Source: Richelia sinica FACHB-800
Lineage (GTDB): Bacteria > Cyanobacteriota > Cyanobacteriia > Cyanobacteriales > Nostocaceae
Assembly (NCBI RefSeq): GCF_014698825.1
Contig: NZ_JACJTT010000001.1
Coordinates: 1 to 64,000 of the forward strand
Direction: 5' to 3'
Length of the DNA: 64,000 nucleotides
Shown piece by piece: positions 4,261-39,980 of this stretch (the stretch's first letter is position 1; the number at the start of each line of letters is the position of its first letter). A program made the translations under genes and the position numbers. The notes under the pieces were generated by a model that was not told where the DNA came from, did not search any database, and saw only the letters and a program-made list of their open reading frames with translations.

Positions 4261-5306
4261 TAATTTAAATCTTCCAGTTTAATCCGTGGGTCAGCAGCCT
4301 TCAGCATCAAGTCAGCAATTAAATTACCCACAATTAACAACACCGCACTCATCACCAAGCTAGCCATAACTAAATACTGGTCTTTGGCTAACACAGCTTG
4401 TAGGGTTAACTTGCCCAAACCCGGCCAGTTAAAGAAGTTTTCTGTAATAAATGCACCACTTAACAAACTAGCTAACTCAAACCCCAATAAAGTTATCAAG
4501 GGATTAATAGCATTCCGCAGTGCATGAACAAAAATCACCCGATTTTCTGGTAAACCTTTAGCACGGGCTGTTTGAATGTAATCTTGGCGCAGCACATCCA
4601 ATAATTCACCACGAGTTATCCGTTGCAAACCAGCAAAACTGGTGATACTCAAGGCAATAATCGGTAAAATCATGTGCCAACCGATATCTAAAATTTTCCC
4701 CAACCATGTAAGTTCACCGTGGTTGATACTGGTCATATTCCCTACGGGAAACAAGGGGGTAGTAATTTGAGCTAAGAATAATAAAAATAGGGCAGTGATA
4801 AAGCTGGGGAAGCCTTGTCCAGTGTAGCTAATGACTTGTAAAACCCTATCGACAGTGCGATTTTGTTTAACAGCTGCGAGAATGCCCAAGGGAATAGCAA
4901 TAGACCAGGTTGTAATTAAAGAAGCGATCGCTAATAATAAAGTCGCTGGCACCCGTTCCCACAATAGAGACGCAACGGAACGCTGATAAACAAAGCTAGT
5001 ACCAAAATCACCCTTGGTGACAATTTGCCTCAACCACAACCAAAACTGCTGCGGCCAAGATTTATCTAAACCAAATTGCTTCCTAATTTCTTCGATGCGT
5101 TCAGGAGAAATTTTCGGATTTTGCCGCAGGGTATCCACATAATCCCCTGGAGACAGTTTCATAATAAAAAACGATAGTGCAGATGCTAAAAAAATCGTTA
5201 ATAGTGCCTGCAATAAGCGTTTTACCACATAAATAAAAGTGTCGCTGGTGACTAGCCTAATTAGCCAATCTCGACTCATCTCCAAGGAAATTTTTGTATG
5301 TGCCAT
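4260..5306 (-). CDS. ABC transporter permease, DppB/OppB type
   Basis: Inner-membrane permease of the peptide/nickel ABC family, 348 residues with about six membrane helices. The N-terminal helix and PGDYVDTLRQNPKISPERIE loop are typical of DppB/OppB. The cytoplasmic EAA loop that contacts the ATPase is near residue 245-265 (GELLDVLRQDYIQTARAKG, then NRVIF). No second permease, ATPase or substrate-binding protein is next to it; scattered ABC genes are common in cyanobacteria. The stop codon lies at the edge of a 56-bp tandem repeat. The substrate cannot be told from sequence; oligopeptide or another small solute is likely. Confidence 0.9.
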   Translation of the reverse strand: MAHTKISLEMSRDWLIRLVTSDTFIYVVKRLLQALLTIFLASALSFFIMKLSPGDYVDTLRQNPKISPERIEEIRKQFGLDKSWPQQFWLWLRQIVTKGDFGTSFVYQRSVASLLWERVPATLLLAIASLITTWSIAIPLGILAAVKQNRTVDRVLQVISYTGQGFPSFITALFLLFLAQITTPLFPVGNMTSINHGELTWLGKILDIGWHMILPIIALSITSFAGLQRITRGELLDVLRQDYIQTARAKGLPENRVIFVHALRNAINPLITLLGFELASLLSGAFITENFFNWPGLGKLTLQAVLAKDQYLVMASLVMSAVLLIVGNLIADLMLKAADPRIKLEDLN

Positions 5307-5362
5307 AGTTTATCAGTTGTCACCTCTGGAAAACTTCATGACTAATCGCCAATCACCAATGA

Positions 5363-5881
5363 CTAATACTGGACTAAGGATATGATCGGCACATCTGGTA
5401 GATTTTTTCGCCCCTGCAAATCTTCTAGCTCGATGATAAACCCAAAGCCTACCAACTCACAGCCAATCTTTTCTAACAACTGTGCAGTGGCGCTAGCAGT
5501 GCCACCAGTAGCAATTAAATCATCGACAATCAACACTCTGCTGCCCACATGCAAAGCATCCTGGTGCATTTCCAGCATATCTGTACCATACTCTAGTTCA
5601 TATTCAACCTGATGAACTGCGGCTGGTAACTTGCCTTTCTTCCGCACAGGCACAAAACCCGCCTCTAGCTTATAAGCCAAAGGGGCACCAAAAATAAAAC
5701 CACGAGACTCCATCCCCACAACGTAATCCGGCTGGAAATCCAAATCTATGCACTTTTGTGCTAAAAAGTCAATTGTGTAGCGTAAACCATCGCGATCGCG
5801 TAATAGAGTAGTAATATCCCGAAATAAAATTCCTGGCTTAGGGAAATCTGGTATGTCACGAATTAAAGCTTTCAAATCCAT
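5363..5881 (-). CDS. apt: Adenine phosphoribosyltransferase
   Basis: Purine salvage enzyme converting adenine plus PRPP to AMP and pyrophosphate in the cytosol. It has 172 residues, the normal size for the short bacterial form. The PRPP-binding loop [14 protein letters not shown] is at residues 116-129, the flexible-loop region is [10 protein letters not shown] at about 78-87, and the base-binding N-terminal segment [13 protein letters not shown] is intact. The gene is 56 bp from the ABC permease start on the same strand, so the two may be co-transcribed, but no functional link is evident. Confidence 0.96.
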
Positions 5882-33736: not shown

Positions 33737-34603
33737 TTGCCAATGTGGGAATGTAGAAAAACTATGTTACGTGATTTTCAAAGTCGCGATGAGTTAGTAA
33801 CTTATCTTCGCAGCCAATTTCCCCAAGTAGTGGAACGAGGGGAAGAAATCAGCACCATAGTGGGAGGAAGAAAGGCAGCACAAAAAGCACTACAAAAAGT
33901 AGACCCAGTTACCTATGGTAAAACTCGTAACTTTTTAACAGGTGCAGTGACTAAACTTTCACCTTATATTCGCTATGGTGTCTTAAGTTTGCGGGAAATT
34001 CGTGATTATATCCTTGAGCAGGTTGAAAATAAAGACGATGCTGCTAAATTAATTAATGAATTAGCTTGGCGTGACTATTGGCAGAGATTGTATGTCAAGC
34101 TAGGAAATAATATTTGGCAAGACCAAGAAGAATATAAAACAGGTTATCAAGCGAAAGATTATGCACCAGAGTTAGCCTCAGATATTCAAGCTGGGACAAC
34201 TGGTAGAGTGTGTATTGATAGCTTTAGCCATGAGTTAAAAGCAACAGGCTATTTACATAATCACATGCGAATGTGGTTAGCAGCTTATATTATTCATTGG
34301 CGCAAAATTCAATGGCAAGCTGGGGCGAAATGGTTTCTACAACATTTGCTAGATGGAGACCCCGCTAGTAATAATATGTCTTGGCAGTGGGTAGCTAGTA
34401 CGTTTAGTCATAAACCCTATTTTTTTAATAGAGAAAATTTAGAAAAATACACTAAAGGTGTTTATTGTCGTCAATGTTCTCTTTACGGTAATTGTGATTT
34501 TGAAGGCAGTTATACAGAATTAGAAAAGCGTCTATTTCCCCAGGGAGAATTTACAAAACAGCCCAATAGTCAAACTTGGCAGAAAGGGAAAAGACGAAAA
34601 TAA
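33737..34603 (+). CDS. Photolyase/cryptochrome-type FAD-binding domain protein (C-terminal half only)
   Basis: The 288 residues correspond to the helical FAD-binding half of the DNA photolyase/cryptochrome family. Diagnostic segments are TKLSPYIRYGVLSLREI near 75-91, ELAWRDYWQRLY near 113-124, HNHMRMWLAAYIIHWRKI near 174-191 and LLDGDPASNNMSWQWVAS near 206-223. Whole photolyases have about 470-500 residues; the N-terminal alpha/beta domain is missing here. The next gene encodes a protein that looks like that missing domain. FAD binding is well supported; DNA repair or light-sensing activity is inference. An alternative ATG at 33764 (MLRDFQSRDE) may be the start. Confidence 0.85.
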   Translation: MPMWECRKTMLRDFQSRDELVTYLRSQFPQVVERGEEISTIVGGRKAAQKALQKVDPVTYGKTRNFLTGAVTKLSPYIRYGVLSLREIRDYILEQVENKDDAAKLINELAWRDYWQRLYVKLGNNIWQDQEEYKTGYQAKDYAPELASDIQAGTTGRVCIDSFSHELKATGYLHNHMRMWLAAYIIHWRKIQWQAGAKWFLQHLLDGDPASNNMSWQWVASTFSHKPYFFNRENLEKYTKGVYCRQCSLYGNCDFEGSYTELEKRLFPQGEFTKQPNSQTWQKGKRRK

Positions 34604-34693
34604 TCAAATGAGAAGTGATGGGCATATGAAATCCATTGCTCATGATTATCTGTGTTCATCTGCGTTTATCCGCGTTCAATTATTAATTCTAGA

Positions 34694-35110
34694 ATGAATA
34701 AACCGATTATTTGGATACATGGAGACTGTCTTAGTCCCTACAACCCTGCACTGCAAGAATATCCTAATACCCCGGCTATTTGGGTGTGGGATGAGGCGTT
34801 AATTGAAGCATGGCAACTGAGTTTTAAACGTCTCACTTTTATTTACGAATGCCTGTTAGAGTTACCTGTGGAAATTCGCCGTGGTGATGTGGCTAAGGAA
34901 ATTTTGACTTTTGCTCAAGAACATGATGCCAGTTTAGTAGTTACTACTGATAGCCCCAGTCCCCGATTTGATGATATTTGCACGGAAGTTGAGAGGTCTT
35001 TAGAATTAGAAGTTTTAGAAGTGGAGCCTTTTTTTGATTATGATGGTTACATTGACTTGAAAAGATTTTCCCGCTATTGGAAAGTAGCTGACAAGTACGT
35101 CTGGGATTGA
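34694..35110 (+). CDS. Photolyase N-terminal alpha/beta-domain-like protein
   Basis: A 138-residue protein from the ATG at 34694. An upstream in-frame ATG at 34652 runs through the intergenic phrase TCTGTGTTCATCTGCGTTTA, so I reject it. The pattern PIIWIHGDCLSPYNPALQEY, IWVWDEALI, FIYECLLELP, VEIRRGDVAKEILTFAQEHD and SLVVTT follows the Rossmann-like antenna domain of photolyases (strand 1, NPAL, Fl..L..L, G-D-..-L, then the A..v.. strand). The gene lies 90 bp after the FAD-domain gene, so together they would form a split photolyase with the halves in swapped order. The assignment rests on pattern, not a search. Confidence 0.65.
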   Translation: MNKPIIWIHGDCLSPYNPALQEYPNTPAIWVWDEALIEAWQLSFKRLTFIYECLLELPVEIRRGDVAKEILTFAQEHDASLVVTTDSPSPRFDDICTEVERSLELEVLEVEPFFDYDGYIDLKRFSRYWKVADKYVWD

Positions 35111-35141: not shown

Positions 35142-36536
35142 ATGCCAAATATACTTGCTGACGCTCAAAATTTACTGACTGACCTCATTGCCCGTTATGC
35201 TTCCCGTGTTGATTATTTGATGATTCGGTTGGAGGAAGCAGAAGACACGGATATTGTGTTGCGTGGCAATAAGGTGGAGACTCTCAGCGAAGGTATATCG
35301 ATTGGTGGGCATATTCGCGCTTGTTATAAGGGTGGCTGGGGTTTGAGCAGTTTTAACCAGCTAGCCACAATTAGTGAGAGGATAGAAGAAGCGATCGCAG
35401 CAGCACGATTAGTGGGTGATGAAGAAACCATCCTCGCACCCATCGACCCCGTACAAGCCATTTGCCAATTACCCCTCACAGGCACTGACCCAAGGCAAAT
35501 ATCTTTGCAACAAAAAAAAGAATTGTGCGATCGCTATACTAACCTACTCAAAAGTTTCGATCCCCGCATCACCACAACCTCAGTCCGTTATGGTGACAGC
35601 ACCCAACGAGTTATCATTGCTTCCTCCGAAGGAACCTTGATAGAACAATCTTGGGTAGACATGGAAATGCGCTTCGCTGCCACAGCCAGAAATGGTGACA
35701 CAGTGCAAACAGGCAGAGAAACCACAGGTTCCCGCAAAGCCTACGAAGACTTAACCAATTTAGATGAGCAAATTACCAGTGCAGCCCAAAGGGCAGTAGC
35801 AGCCCTATCTTTACCACCAGTTAAAGGCAACACCTACACCGTAGTTATTGACCCCATTCTCACCGGCTTATTTGTCCATGAAGCATTTGGCCATCTTTCC
35901 GAAGCTGATATGGCCTATGAAAACCCCGATTTATTAGAAGTCATGACCATCGGCCGACGTTTCGGCCCAGAAGAATTGCAAATTTGGGATGGGGCAGCAC
36001 CAGAAGGTCATCGTGGCAGCTATTTTTATGACGATGAAGGTACTCCTGCCACCACTACCCAATTAATCAAAGATGGAGTGCTAGTAGGCAGACTACATTC
36101 CCGTGAAACCGCTGGCAAATTAGACGAAACACCCACAGGTAACGCACGTTGCCTCAATTATCATTTTTCCCCCATCGTTCGCATGACGAACACCTGGATT
36201 GAAAGAGGTAAAACACCAGTTGCAGATTTATTTACAGATATTAAAGAAGGAGTTTACGCCCGTAATTGGTTAGGAGGCATGACCAACGGCGAAATGTTTA
36301 CCTTCAGTGCTGGGGAAGCCTGGATGATTAGAAACGGCAAAATCGCTGAACCAGTTCGAGACGTGACACTTTCAGGTAACGTTTTTCAAACCTTAGCAGA
36401 TATCGAAGCCATTGGTGATGACTTTTACTGGGATGAATCAGGTGGTTGTGGCAAAGGTGGACAAAATGGCTTACCTGTAGGTTGTGGTGGGCCAAGTTTA
36501 CGCATTCAAGAAGTGGTAGTTGGCGGTGAAACCTGA
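35142..36536 (+). CDS. tldD: TldD family zinc metalloprotease
   Basis: TldD pairs with TldE/PmbA to degrade unfolded peptides and to mature some RiPPs. It is 464 residues. The zinc site is HEAFGH (His246, Glu247, His251), the HExxxH form specific to TldD; TldE partners lack it. The C-terminal region contains the family segments YDDEGTPATTTQLIKDGVLV, NARCLNYHFSPIVRMTN and GCGKGGQNGLPVGCGGPS. No TldE gene is in the window. It starts 31 bp after the photolyase-domain gene, so the three plus-strand genes may share a transcript. Confidence 0.95.
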   Translation: MPNILADAQNLLTDLIARYASRVDYLMIRLEEAEDTDIVLRGNKVETLSEGISIGGHIRACYKGGWGLSSFNQLATISERIEEAIAAARLVGDEETILAPIDPVQAICQLPLTGTDPRQISLQQKKELCDRYTNLLKSFDPRITTTSVRYGDSTQRVIIASSEGTLIEQSWVDMEMRFAATARNGDTVQTGRETTGSRKAYEDLTNLDEQITSAAQRAVAALSLPPVKGNTYTVVIDPILTGLFVHEAFGHLSEADMAYENPDLLEVMTIGRRFGPEELQIWDGAAPEGHRGSYFYDDEGTPATTTQLIKDGVLVGRLHSRETAGKLDETPTGNARCLNYHFSPIVRMTNTWIERGKTPVADLFTDIKEGVYARNWLGGMTNGEMFTFSAGEAWMIRNGKIAEPVRDVTLSGNVFQTLADIEAIGDDFYWDESGGCGKGGQNGLPVGCGGPSLRIQEVVVGGET

Positions 36537-36627: not shown

Positions 36628-36959
36628 AATACCAATTCTCTAAAAGCCAGCTACAGATAAAGCCATCAAAATATATTGCCTTCGGGCAATAGATGCAATA
36701 ATGTGTTTGGTTAATTTCCCAATTTCAGCGTAGAGAGCAGTACGTAAATCATCAAGTTTTTTGGGTAGTAACCAACGCAGTCGGCGCTTAAGATATTGCC
36801 AAACCTGTTCAATTGGGTTTAATTCGGGAGAATGTGCAGGCTGAAATAATAAAATGATGTTATCTGGTACTTGAAGACGTTTGGCTTGATGAAAGGCACC
36901 ATTATCCAGTTGAATAATTAGTACCGAATCAGTAAAATGTTGAGAAATATAAAGAGCTA
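36628..36959 (-). mobile_element. IS630-family remnant (3' end with terminal repeat)
   Basis: The element end is TAATACCAATTCTCT (36628-36641), lying directly after the transposase stop. It matches the terminal repeat of the MITE at 29852-29965. Only the last third of the transposase is left. The inner breakpoint is at about 36959, exactly at the stop codon of the FGE-domain gene, so the other end of the insertion sequence is missing. Confidence 0.8.
36640..36959 (-). pseudogene. IS630 transposase, C-terminal fragment
   Basis: About 105 codons remain of a DDE-type transposase normally near 330-350 residues. Present are the second catalytic Asp in IIQLDNGAFHQAKRLQ, the linker FQPAHSPELNPIEQVW with the catalytic Glu, and the basic C-terminal helix. 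The N-terminal helix-turn-helix and the first Asp are lost. The open frame runs upstream into the FGE gene in another frame, but that part is not transposase. It cannot be active. Confidence 0.88.
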
Positions 36960-37814
36960 CTAATACGTTATTCCGACCCCACACACAACACGAAAACCAA
37001 AATAGTTGTCGTAACGGGAATCGCGACCGTAGTAGTTGCGATACGCGGAACGGCAGATCTCAGGATTGCCGAACCAAGAACCGCCCCGCAGCATGGCTTG
37101 TCCTGTTTTGTCAATAAGGTTTTTATCACTATTAAACCAAGCACTGCCATCTGTAGGCGCTCCTTCATAATTACTGTGCCAATCGTCAAGACACCATTCC
37201 CAGACGTTTCCGTGCATATCGTATAAGCCAAAGTTATTGGCTACTCCAAAACTCCCTACTTCTGTTGTTTCTTGTCTATAAACTCCTTTTGGGCCTTGTC
37301 CATAAGAACCTGACCATTGATTATTTTCACCGTCTGTACCATCATAGTTAGCCAAATCCGTTGTAATTGTCTCGCCAAAGTGAAATGGCGTGGTTGTTCC
37401 GGCTCGACAGGCATATTCCCATTCAGCTTCACTGGGGAGACGATAATTTCTACCTGTATGTTGAGAAAGGCGTGAGCAAAACTCGACTGCATCGTACCAA
37501 GACACTTGCTCAACTGGGCGATTTGCACCTTTAAAATTAGAAGGATTGGGGTTAAGTTCTCGGTTAACTTGCGGCATGGCGGCTACTGCTTGCCATTGTG
37601 CTTGAGTGACTGGAAATTTACCCATACAACATAGCTGAATGTTAACTAAATGCTGAGGGCTTTCTGAGTCACGACGTTCTAGCTCATCTTCTGGTGAACC
37701 CATCATAAAGCTGCCTCTTGGAATCAAGACCATTTCTAGTTCAATTCCATTACCCAAGTCTTCTACATAGCATTTTGCTGTCTTCTGTATCCGGTTGATA
37801 ACTATTTTTGGCAT
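36960..37814 (-). CDS. FGE-sulfatase (C-type-lectin-fold) domain protein, last gene of the conflict operon
   Basis: 284 residues, nearly all one formylglycine-generating-enzyme-like domain (GIELEMVLIPRGSFMMGSPE at 24-43; [46 protein letters not shown]). Where true FGEs have a Cys pair (SYMCHRSYC in human SUMF1), this protein keeps only the second Cys (SWFGNPEIC), so it is probably not a formylglycine synthase. It is closely similar to the C-terminal domain of the upstream neighbour. Residues from LRGGSW to GFRVV use many NNC codons and look like a DGR variable region. The last six residues (GVGITY) and the stop lie at the junction with an IS630 fragment and may be altered. Confidence 0.85.
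   Translation of the reverse strand: MPKIVINRIQKTAKCYVEDLGNGIELEMVLIPRGSFMMGSPEDELERRDSESPQHLVNIQLCCMGKFPVTQAQWQAVAAMPQVNRELNPNPSNFKGANRPVEQVSWYDAVEFCSRLSQHTGRNYRLPSEAEWEYACRAGTTTPFHFGETITTDLANYDGTDGENNQWSGSYGQGPKGVYRQETTEVGSFGVANNFGLYDMHGNVWEWCLDDWHSNYEGAPTDGSAWFNSDKNLIDKTGQAMLRGGSWFGNPEICRSAYRNYYGRDSRYDNYFGFRVVCGVGITY
36975..37092 (-). other. Candidate DGR variable region in the last FGE gene
   Basis: Between the constant LRGGSW and GFRVV, the codons at positions that differ from the neighbouring paralogue are TTC, GGC, ATC, AAC, TAC, TAC, TAC, GAC and AAC. Third-position C with varied first and second bases is the product of adenine mutagenesis of AAC codons. No template repeat or reverse transcriptase was found in the window. 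Confidence 0.55.
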
Positions 37815-37925
37815 TTATTATCACTGGCTTTTGTAATTTTGCAAAAAAAATTTTAAACGCTCCGCTTTGCTCCGCTAAAAAGAGTAGAAAAGAAAAAGTG
37901 CAAAGAGTAAAAAGAGCTATTAAGC
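37815..37925. other. Spacer between the two FGE genes
   Basis: 111 bp, AT-rich, containing the short direct repeat GCTCCGCTTTGCTCCGC (37860-37876). No template-repeat-like copy of the variable regions is present. Confidence 0.4.
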
Positions 37926-39980
37926 TTACGCAGGAGAACATGCAACACGAAACCCGAAGCAGTATGCCGTTGAGCCGAGATCCTTGTTGCTGCGATAAGC
38001 CGAACGGCAATTTCTAGGATTGGTGTACCAAGAACCACCACGCAGTATACGATTATTATCATCTAGCCATACGCTTCCGTCTGTTGGCGCACTTTTATAA
38101 TTCTCATGCCAATGGTCTTGACACCATTCCCATACGTTTCCGTGCATATCATACAATCCAAAGTTATTAGCTACTTTAAGAATCCCTACTTCTGTTGTTT
38201 CTTGTCTGTAAATTCCTTTGGGTCCTTGACCATAAGAACCTGACCATTGATTTTTTTCATCATCTGTACCACGATAATTAGCTAAATCAGTTGTAATTGT
38301 CTCGCCAAAGTGAAATGGTGTCTTTGTTCCGGCTCGACAGGCATATTCCCATTCAGCTTCACTCGGAAGGCGGTAGGGTCTACCTGTATATTGAGAGAGG
38401 CGATGGCAAAACTCAACAGCATCATCCCAAGAAACTTGCTCTACAGGGCGATTTTCTCCTTTAAAATTAGATGGGTCGGGATTTAAATCCCGATTCACTT
38501 GGGGCAACTGAGCTACAAATTGCCACTGTGCTTGGGTGACTGGATATTTACCCATAAAAAATGGCTGCACTGTTACTGTATGTTGTGGACTTTCACTACT
38601 TCGGCGTTCTAATTCCTTTGATGGAGAACCCATGACAAATTCACCACCGGGAATTGCTACCATTTCTAGCCCTATAATTCTTTGTTGTGTTTGTTGTAGT
38701 GGTACTGGTAGCGTTAGTGGTAGTTCTTCTAAAGCCTTTTCGATTTGAGAAATTTCTTCGTCAACCTTTGATATCTCTAATGATATATCTTCCTGTATCC
38801 TAAACCTTTCAACATGAGAATTTTCATATATAAAATTGCTTACAAAATTATGCTCCAATGTCTTTTTTTCTTTGGATAAGTAAAATAACTGCCGTTGAAG
38901 TTTTGCTCTTTGTTGCTGTTTTATTTGTTGTGTTTGTTGTGGTGATAGCCTTTTTAAAGTCTCATCTATTTCAGAAATTCGCTCATTAATTTTTATTAAA
39001 TTGAAATAAGTCTTTTTTTCATCAATAGTAGTTTGTTGATATGTTAAATTTTGTGATAATTCTTGTGTAACTTTTATTAGTCTATCTTTCTCTTCTAATA
39101 AAATTAATTTTTCTTTGAGTTTTTCTGACTCCTCAAAGTCTACTTGGTTGTCATCACCTAACAACTCTACAAAATAAAACCCTCGTTGTTTTTCTCTGTT
39201 AACAACTTGTCCACGAGCATCAACAGTCACTGTTACAAAGTCAAAGGGTTGTAACTCTTCTGTAGGCTCATCTTCTTGAGTAATGATTGCTACTTGAAAC
39301 TTGACAGGTTGTAGGGTAATTCCCATCTGTGTGGCTATTTTGGTAGCCTCATCCTGAATGGGTTGATTATCGAGTGTTTGTTGCGCCCATTCTAATAACA
39401 ATGGCTGAAAACCTTTTTCTGATAATAGGTCAGCATAACTTTCTACTAATGCTGCCCATTTGATACGCTCTTTACCATCTGCCGAGCTTGTCAACCGTTG
39501 CAATTCTTGTTTAATAGCGTTAATTGCTTCTTGTCCATCAGGACTCAGGTACGCCAATGCTGTCCAGTCGGGGCGTTCTCCCAAAACTAAAACCCGGTTA
39601 TCGTTGTTGGCCTGCAAACGACTGGCAATATACTCAGACATAAAATTAGCCAGTTCTTTGAGTCGCTGTTCCCCAAACTCATCGCATAACTGGCGAAGTA
39701 AGGCATCTCTTGTTTTACCTTCCATTTCATACAGGTCATAGCCTGCGGTTTGGCATAATCCTGAGAGCAATACATCTGCCACTGCATACCAGGGAACATC
39801 ACGAACAAAATTCTCACGTAAACAATAGAGTAAATCTGAAGTGAGGGTCAGGGGAAAAGCAGCATGGTAGGCCAAATACAGCGCATTCGTTCCGTAGCGT
39901 CTTTCAAAAACCCGAATGCGGCGAGTTGCTAAATCGTCTCTATTTTTAGGCGACATTAGATTTGGGGATACATCTGCCAT
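37926..39980 (-). CDS. Conflict-system protein: helical N-domain, coiled coil and FGE-sulfatase domain
   Basis: 684 residues. The N-terminal part (about 15-260, [20 protein letters not shown] ... [19 protein letters not shown]) is a helical/alpha-beta region found in cyanobacterial proteins encoded with MoxR and vWA genes, comparable to vWA-MoxR-associated proteins. A long coiled coil spans about 285-430. The FGE-like, C-type-lectin-fold domain spans about 445-684. As in the next gene, only one of the two catalytic FGE cysteines remains (SWYTNPRNC), so a ligand-binding role is more likely than sulfatase activation. The first ATG overlaps the vWA gene by 25 bases; an ATG at 39956 in a TAATG overlap is the alternative. 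The C-terminus shows a DGR-like variable pattern. Confidence 0.82.
37935..38045 (-). other. Candidate DGR variable region in the longer FGE gene
   Basis: From LRGGSW to GFRVACSPA. Codons at variable positions are TAC, ACC, AAT, AGC, AAC, CTC, GGC, TAC, TGC and TTC, against a constant framework (AATCCT, TGCCGTTC, TATCGC) shared with the downstream paralogue. Confidence 0.55.

Follow-up and report, generated by a model that had tools for sequence, protein, structure and literature searches.

A reverse-order split photolyase-type gene pair in the cyanobacterium Richelia sinica and the joint retention of its FAD-binding and antenna-type halves

A photolyase-type gene split in two, with its halves in reversed order, has already been described. 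Haney et al. (2022; PMC9426592) reported such a pair, Phr4/Phr5, with four Fe-S cysteines from marine Synechococcus, stated the same gene complement for Nostoc punctiforme, and described a fused form, Phr6, from marine Synechococcus and Cyanobium. That paper leaves open the choice between one polypeptide and two for Phr4/Phr5 and raises programmed frameshifting for Synechococcus. The phr4 mutant of Synechococcus RS9916 shows 20-30 times lower survival of UV-C and no UV-B phenotype, and phr4/phr5 DNA shields Escherichia coli from UV-C, the protection not differing significantly between light and dark (PMC9426592). Two further groups are close to this pair. The short photolyase-like (SPL) proteins (Xu et al. 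2021) are treated as lacking the alpha/beta domain (PMC9649867, PMC9178010, PMC9498864), are stated to be of the CPD class (PMC9649867, PMC13274461) and, partly on account of the missing domain, have been put forward as a candidate root of the family (PMC9649867, PMC9498864). PMC13274461 treats NewPHL and SPL as one group and cites a class of inverted topology.

The window analysed here comprises 64,000 nucleotides of Richelia sinica FACHB-800 (contig NZ_JACJTT010000001.1, positions 1 to 64,000, forward strand), and the pair that it carries is the Phr4/Phr5 of Haney et al. (PMC9426592). The initial annotation had set the locus against a background in which photolyases are single chains with the antenna domain first; that background is not supported, since both the reversed order and the split pair are already in print (PMC9426592), and inverted topology appears in PMC13274461. 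The features of the locus are as follows.

33764..34603, + strand: phr4-type gene, FAD-binding (catalytic) half, 279 aa from ATG; Pfam FAD_binding_7
34211..34213, + strand: codon of C150, first of four presumed Fe-S cysteines (by residue number and alignment conservation)
34466..34495, + strand: codons of C235, C238 and C244 (C-x2-C-x5-C), presumed Fe-S cysteines (by residue numbers and conservation)
34604..34693, + strand: intergenic spacer, 90 bp from stop to ATG, in frame with phr4 and phr5
34694..35110, + strand: phr5-type gene, antenna-type alpha/beta domain, 138 aa from ATG

The FAD half comes first and the alpha/beta half second, both as + strand ORFs, which bears out the arrangement originally proposed: a FAD half without an N-terminal domain, 90 bp, and then a protein of 138 residues. 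The 288 residues given for the FAD half count from a TTG at 33737, a possible start; the ATG at 33764 (279 aa) fits the orthologue alignments, which begin at residue 1. From an upstream GTG the phr5 ORF would span 152 aa, and from the ATG at 34694 it spans 138. The two genes share one reading frame, and the phr4 stop and two more stops precede the phr5 ATG. No Rfam match was found in the spacer 34604-34693, and promoter, terminator and Rfam scans of the phr4/phr5 locus returned nothing useful above expectation. The spacer contains an internally repetitive piece (ATCTGTGTTCATCTGCGTTTATC) that occurs once in the window with up to 5 mismatches allowed. A TPR-repeat gene lies upstream of phr4 and a TldD/PmbA-type gene (35142-36536) downstream of phr5; farther on, at 36640-39980, are two minus-strand ORFs with similar formylglycine-enzyme-like repeats, one of them overlapped by a short transposase-like ORF, all named by eye. 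Elsewhere in the genome there is one further FAD_binding_7 gene, a 481-aa canonical, full-length class I photolyase, and no match to a PF04244-type Fe-S (6-4) photolyase was found in the genome or in the Phr4 protein. CofH scores over its cut-off in this genome, so the precursor pathway of the 8-HDF pigment may be present.

How faithfully do the two halves accompany each other, and does their association depend on linkage? We surveyed two overlapping samples, one with 243 genomes from the order and one with 319 from the phylum, amounting to 488 distinct genomes (G000-G487), with a cut-off of E <= 1e-60 for Phr4 orthologues. Phr4 matches at about 1e-15 to 1e-30, which are canonical photolyases, Phr7-type chains or the remnant in G048, were excluded, as were the Phr5 matches in G408 and G420 (E 8e-4 and 9.7e-4). 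Also excluded from the counts was G261 (E 3.6e-49), a deep cyanobacterial-phylum genome whose 441-aa fused chain (L044) is devoid of the cysteines and has a Phr5-like end (SFSQFWEVARDQLVW); this genome gives no Phr5 match at E <= 0.001 because its own C-terminal domain is too diverged for the search. With these settings the FAD half occurs in 97 of the 488 cyanobacterial genomes (58 in the order sample and 39 further ones in the phylum sample), and the second half is present in all 97. Within the 243 genomes of the order sample the partner accompanies the FAD half in 58 of 58 cases, with a Fisher p of 1e-50 that is not a true probability, the species being related and hence not independent. 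The recurrence of the pair in other cyanobacteria, which the initial annotation had named as a check, is therefore seen in 97 of 97 cases among the 488 genomes, and relatives with the FAD gene alone, which it had named as a sign to the contrary, did not appear in these samples: each intact FAD gene has its partner, linked or not.

In 74 of the 97 pairs the genes lie on one strand with the FAD half first, the aligned ends being separated by -7 to 3104 bp, and one of these linked pairs is fused (G442, 539 aa). The pairs of 23 genomes are non-adjacent, 11 of them on one contig at a distance of at least 25 kb and 12 on different draft contigs; since phr4 and phr5 are not neighbours there, these genomes encode two polypeptides. 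Retention without linkage is predicted by a two-subunit enzyme and not by a linked frameshift product. Phr5, or a piece of it, occurs without intact Phr4 in five genomes of the order sample: as a 23-residue fragment (G108), as a partial Phr5 (G237) and at full length in G048, where a phr4 remnant persists, G176 and G209. We count the three full-length cases against the two-subunit reading. The remnant in G048 (L061, about 5292-5492) is a 3' piece of phr4 with a 75-aa open frame, ahead of intact phr5. A partial second copy of both genes was observed at G456:C1:293238-293917, with an intact pair elsewhere on the same contig. Of 15 unlinked Phr5 loci examined, seven (L062, L067-L070, L079, L081) keep the TldD/PmbA-type gene next to phr5, which indicates that in these seven Nostocaceae loci phr4 is the gene located elsewhere.

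Outside cyanobacteria, a scan across phyla covered 84,980 named species and confirmed 582 loci, the best 80 of which, and thus not a random sample, are considered here; the sets overlap, L116, for example, lying within G500, the same assembly as G181 by coordinates. The best 80 of the 582 loci belong to Cyanobacteriota, Acidobacteriota, Chloroflexota, Pseudomonadota and one Acidimicrobiia MAG. Among these best 80 of 582, the second half is a separate downstream ORF in 51 (L149 being counted so at 2566 bp), follows the FAD half in the same ORF in 19 (L120 being included on the strength of a weak match at a contig end, E 3.3e-4) and is missing from the locus in 10. Eighteen of the 19 same-ORF loci come from or group with Methylophilaceae-type bacteria, and one is from Synechococcus. 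For nine of the ten loci that miss it, the second half lies elsewhere in the genome, namely in all eight of the eight cyanobacteria and in one Chloroflexi MAG, where the match is partial and on another contig; in one Chloroflexi MAG no second half was found, its contig ending just after the FAD gene. Adjacent, fused or at another place in the genome, the second half is thus present for 79 of the best 80 of 582 loci. In the phylum of the Acidimicrobiia MAG, 45 of 247 genomes have a match at E <= 1e-25; four of the matches are short FAD genes, with the partner adjacent in one and unlinked in three of the three others (E 3e-28 to 1e-29). In these three (L175, L176, L177) the short FAD gene has the Fe-S cysteines, and its FAD pocket reads DGNPPPN, against DGDxASN in others. 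Plasmid matches amount to six records, four from Deinococcus and two from Persicobacter, the Deinococcus records carrying, by profile, the fused chain in three cases and a split pair in one. A check on a phage origin yielded only weak matches in the phage collection, 10 records with about 33-34% identity over 57-73% of the query. Two large phage-labelled records (H15, H16; Acinetobacter phage MD-2021a) hold an annotated phrB photolyase that matches the FAD half at 33%.

Phr4 matches Pfam FAD_binding_7 with E 1.3e-25 (90.4 bits, the cut-off being 27), the match spanning positions 2-127 of the 203 in the profile, and its structural matches to photolyase FAD domains reach Z 15-17. Residues were compared by alignment to the A. 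nidulans photolyase (1owl), with conservation taken over 114 rows of relatives. Of the 13 positions that Haney et al. list as FAD residues, eight are identical to 1owl (Y51, L65, S66, R103, N166, D197, D199 and N203), four differ (V62, T63, Y163 and S202) and one falls within an insertion in the alignment. All four cysteines, C150, C235, C238 and C244, are present in 87 of the 114 relatives, position 150 being C in those 87, and at least one is missing in the other 27, among them L049, whose gene is interrupted by a stop. The four cysteines of Phr4 probably hold a [4Fe-4S] cluster. A cyanobacterial split-pair lineage (L045, L046, L083, L084, L085) lacks the four cysteines and has SPPD instead. 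Five positions that we take to be the CPD contacts are the same in Phr4 and in the A. nidulans enzyme: E99 (kept in 102 of the 114 rows), W102 (112), N166 (113), M170 (106) and W209 (114). The FAD- and CPD-contact residues are near-invariant over several phyla. Of the three tryptophans of the canonical electron chain, Phr4 keeps two (W184, W207); the third falls in an unaligned insertion, which we count against the two-subunit photolyase reading.

Which lesion would such an enzyme repair? (6-4) enzymes have His at the positions of N166 and M170, whereas the class I CPD set is kept here, with N166 in 113 and M170 in 106 of the 114 rows; judged from these residues, CPD is the more likely lesion. 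The same two-subunit assembly might instead repair (6-4) photoproducts, as has been predicted for Phr4/Phr5 from the Fe-S cysteines (PMC9426592). The four cysteines of Phr4 and the UV-C-specific phenotype in Synechococcus and E. coli (PMC9426592) agree with this, as does the lack of a PF04244-type enzyme in the genome, a gap that a (6-4) enzyme would fill; several of the structures closest to the FAD half are also Fe-S (6-4) enzymes (5kcm, for example, at Z 17.1), tied with the class I enzyme 1iqr (16.8). Given the residues and the CPD class stated for SPL in two papers (PMC9649867, PMC13274461), we consider (6-4) repair unlikely, while giving it some weight.

A different objection comes from the experiments on Synechococcus genes. 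Protection of E. coli that does not differ significantly between light and dark, together with the missing UV-B phenotype (PMC9426592), is odd for a photolyase and casts doubt either on photolyase activity or on assembly in E. coli. The pair could accordingly be read as a cryptochrome-like light sensor, or as a damage binder that aids other repair in the dark, for which the absence of a significant light effect in E. coli speaks (PMC9426592). Near-invariance of both dimer-contact and FAD residues over several phyla, and retention of the pair despite a full-length class I photolyase in the same genome, argue against a sensor or binder, and we hold it to be improbable, a little more so than (6-4) repair.

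The identity of the second half is less obvious from family models. Phr5 matches Pfam DNA_photolyase (PF00875) with E 1.1e-4 and 22.6 bits, below the curated cut-off of 26.6; its next Pfam match is Usp at E 0.01, and no NCBIfam family matched it. The weak PF00875 match is made firm by profile-profile comparison and the predicted fold. A profile of Phr5 (55 rows) aligns with one of canonical antenna domains (23 rows) at probability 98.3 and E 1.5e-14, colinearly over the full length and with the canonical YTPFWK region facing RFSRYWK, whereas seven reversed-sequence controls gave at most 0.3 each. Comparison with five other divergent fused relatives gave probability 90.6 (E 1.3e-6), and with Z-domains, the second domain of NewPHL, taken from Prochlorococcus Phr7, a probability of 0.3, no similarity being detected with 10 near-identical rows of low diversity. 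D33, R46, F49, G64, R124 and W129 are invariant in the 55 rows. AlphaFold predicts Phr5 alone with pLDDT 94.4 and pTM 0.85 as five strands alternating with helices, and a Foldseek search with this model returned 49 matches at E <= 0.001, 47 of them photolyases or cryptochromes and two universal stress proteins. In VIA-align comparisons Phr5 reaches Z 12.4 with each of 1iqr, 1dnp and 3zxs; among proteins of the universal stress type the highest score is 10.4, over about 97 residues only and 2 below the photolyases. By profile and predicted fold, then, Phr5 is clearly a full-length homologue of the photolyase antenna domain. The alpha/beta patterning noticed in the initial annotation is thereby upheld, and the structure prediction did not give the other fold that would have spoken against it. 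The remark that the protein is shorter than the usual domain is weakly true; clear truncation is not seen, as 135 of its residues can be placed on the stretch 1-166 of the E. coli enzyme (1dnp; Z 12.4, rmsd 4.8).

It is very improbable that Phr5 is an unrelated Rossmann-like protein, such as a universal stress protein, and a mere neighbour of phr4: the Usp match at E 0.01 and two of the 49 Foldseek matches point that way, against the full-length profile match, the 47 photolyase and cryptochrome matches, the fusion of the same domain to the FAD half in other bacteria and the retention of the pair without linkage, and we reject this candidate on the unlinked retention and the profile match. Least credible of all is a single gene whose two ORFs are joined through a frameshift, readthrough or an error in the sequence; natural single chains in the same order (L043, L096, 19 of the best 80 of 582 loci and three Deinococcus plasmids) and the common frame of phr4 and phr5 in the window are set against three intervening stops, linked gaps of -7 to 3104 bp and 11 pairs whose genes share a contig at a distance of 25 kb or more, and the unlinked pairs rule out frameshifting or readthrough as a general explanation.

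The reading that we prefer is that phr4 and phr5 encode two subunits of one photolyase-class flavoprotein, to which, with physical assembly inferred, we assign a probability of roughly 75%. A joint structure prediction, one of the checks suggested in the initial annotation, gave a confident model of the two halves as one joined chain. The input joined Phr4 and Phr5 of the window through a 31-residue reading of the spacer with stops read as Ser, and the accompanying alignment comprised 11 natural fusions together with 29 FAD halves and 21 second halves. Mean pLDDT is 90.7 and pTM 0.88, values for the whole joined chain with its artificial linker and not an interface score; spacer residues 279-302 fall under pLDDT 50, leaving the linker disordered. 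Over the last 28 or so residues of Phr5 the block means rise from 86/89/84 when the protein is modelled by itself to about 95/94/95 when it is modelled jointly, and such a gain in the last helix is as a real interface would give in the model. The 11 natural fusions in the alignment will have taught the docking to the model, and we count this against it.

How might such a two-subunit enzyme work? Phr4 would be the helical catalytic subunit, binding FAD and probably a [4Fe-4S] cluster, with a flipped-out pyrimidine dimer entering a pocket like that of CPD photolyases. Phr5 would supply the alpha/beta antenna-type domain in trans, its conserved C-terminal RFxRYW helix docking on Phr4 and closing the FAD side, and it may hold an antenna pigment. 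Blue or UV-A light would then excite the reduced FAD, and electron transfer would split the dimer. Phr4/Phr5 is most likely a two-subunit photolyase and, by its conserved residues, probably of the CPD type.

In a tree built from 121 FAD cores, 82 of them split, 32 fused and 7 canonical class I sequences serving as outgroup, the split and fused reversed forms lie together on one side of a branch with an SH-aLRT of 99. The tree was made by a quick method that gives no bootstrap values; some long branches are flagged in it, and class I is its sole outgroup. The arrangement changes six times on it, at least three changes being forced by well-supported branches. This topology suggests that the reversed order is native to the lineage and did not come about by rearrangement of a canonical gene; it also suggests that fused forms, among them Cyanobium Phr6 and the chains of Deinococcus, arose in separate events.

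What appears to be new here is that in the cyanobacterial genomes sampled the FAD half seems always to occur with the alpha/beta half, even unlinked; we found no statement of a general trans-encoded alpha/beta partner of short FAD halves in the open-licence literature. The short photolyases examined receive their missing alpha/beta domain in trans, as follows from the 97 of 97 co-occurrence, the 79 of the best 80 of 582 loci and the antenna homology of Phr5 with the joint model. For themselves, the unlinked genomes answer the question posed in 2022 between one frameshifted chain and two proteins. A member of SPL reportedly repairs CPDs (Xu et al. 2021), and an SPL protein assayed alone may be half an enzyme. 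The pairing rule is relevant to the proposed descent of photolyases and cryptochromes from an SPL without the domain. Whether the SPL class in general is a two-component enzyme, with its alpha/beta subunit encoded in trans, we regard as an even bet; if it is, the lack of the domain would not be primitive and that argument for SPL as ancestor would fall, and the reverse-order pair could record a passage from a two-subunit photolyase to single-chain enzymes through fusion in either order. A natural split photolyase would also offer an antenna subunit that can be removed or restored.

Compared with the described systems, the locus is closest to Phr4/Phr5 of Haney et al., with which it shares the FAD gene first, the alpha/beta gene downstream, the four cysteines and the lack of an N-terminal domain; in Synechococcus 7 bp separate the two genes, which are not in one frame, whereas those of the window are 90 bp apart and in frame. 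Class I CPD photolyases (E. coli, A. nidulans) have both domains in homologous form and the same dimer-contact residues, but in one chain with the antenna first and without this Fe-S cysteine pattern. The FeS-BCP (6-4) photolyases share the FAD-domain fold and four cysteines proposed for an Fe-S cluster, and differ in being single chains with an antenna domain of the PF04244 type in front. NewPHL (Emmerich et al. 2020) likewise has the catalytic domain first and the second domain C-terminal, as do the fused relatives found here, yet it is a single chain, whereas the window has two ORFs with stops between them. With SPL, Phr4 has in common a short FAD-domain chain with a CPD-type pocket; the difference is that the alpha/beta domain, off the chain, is nevertheless encoded next door here, and is present in 97 of 97 cyanobacterial genomes with the FAD half.
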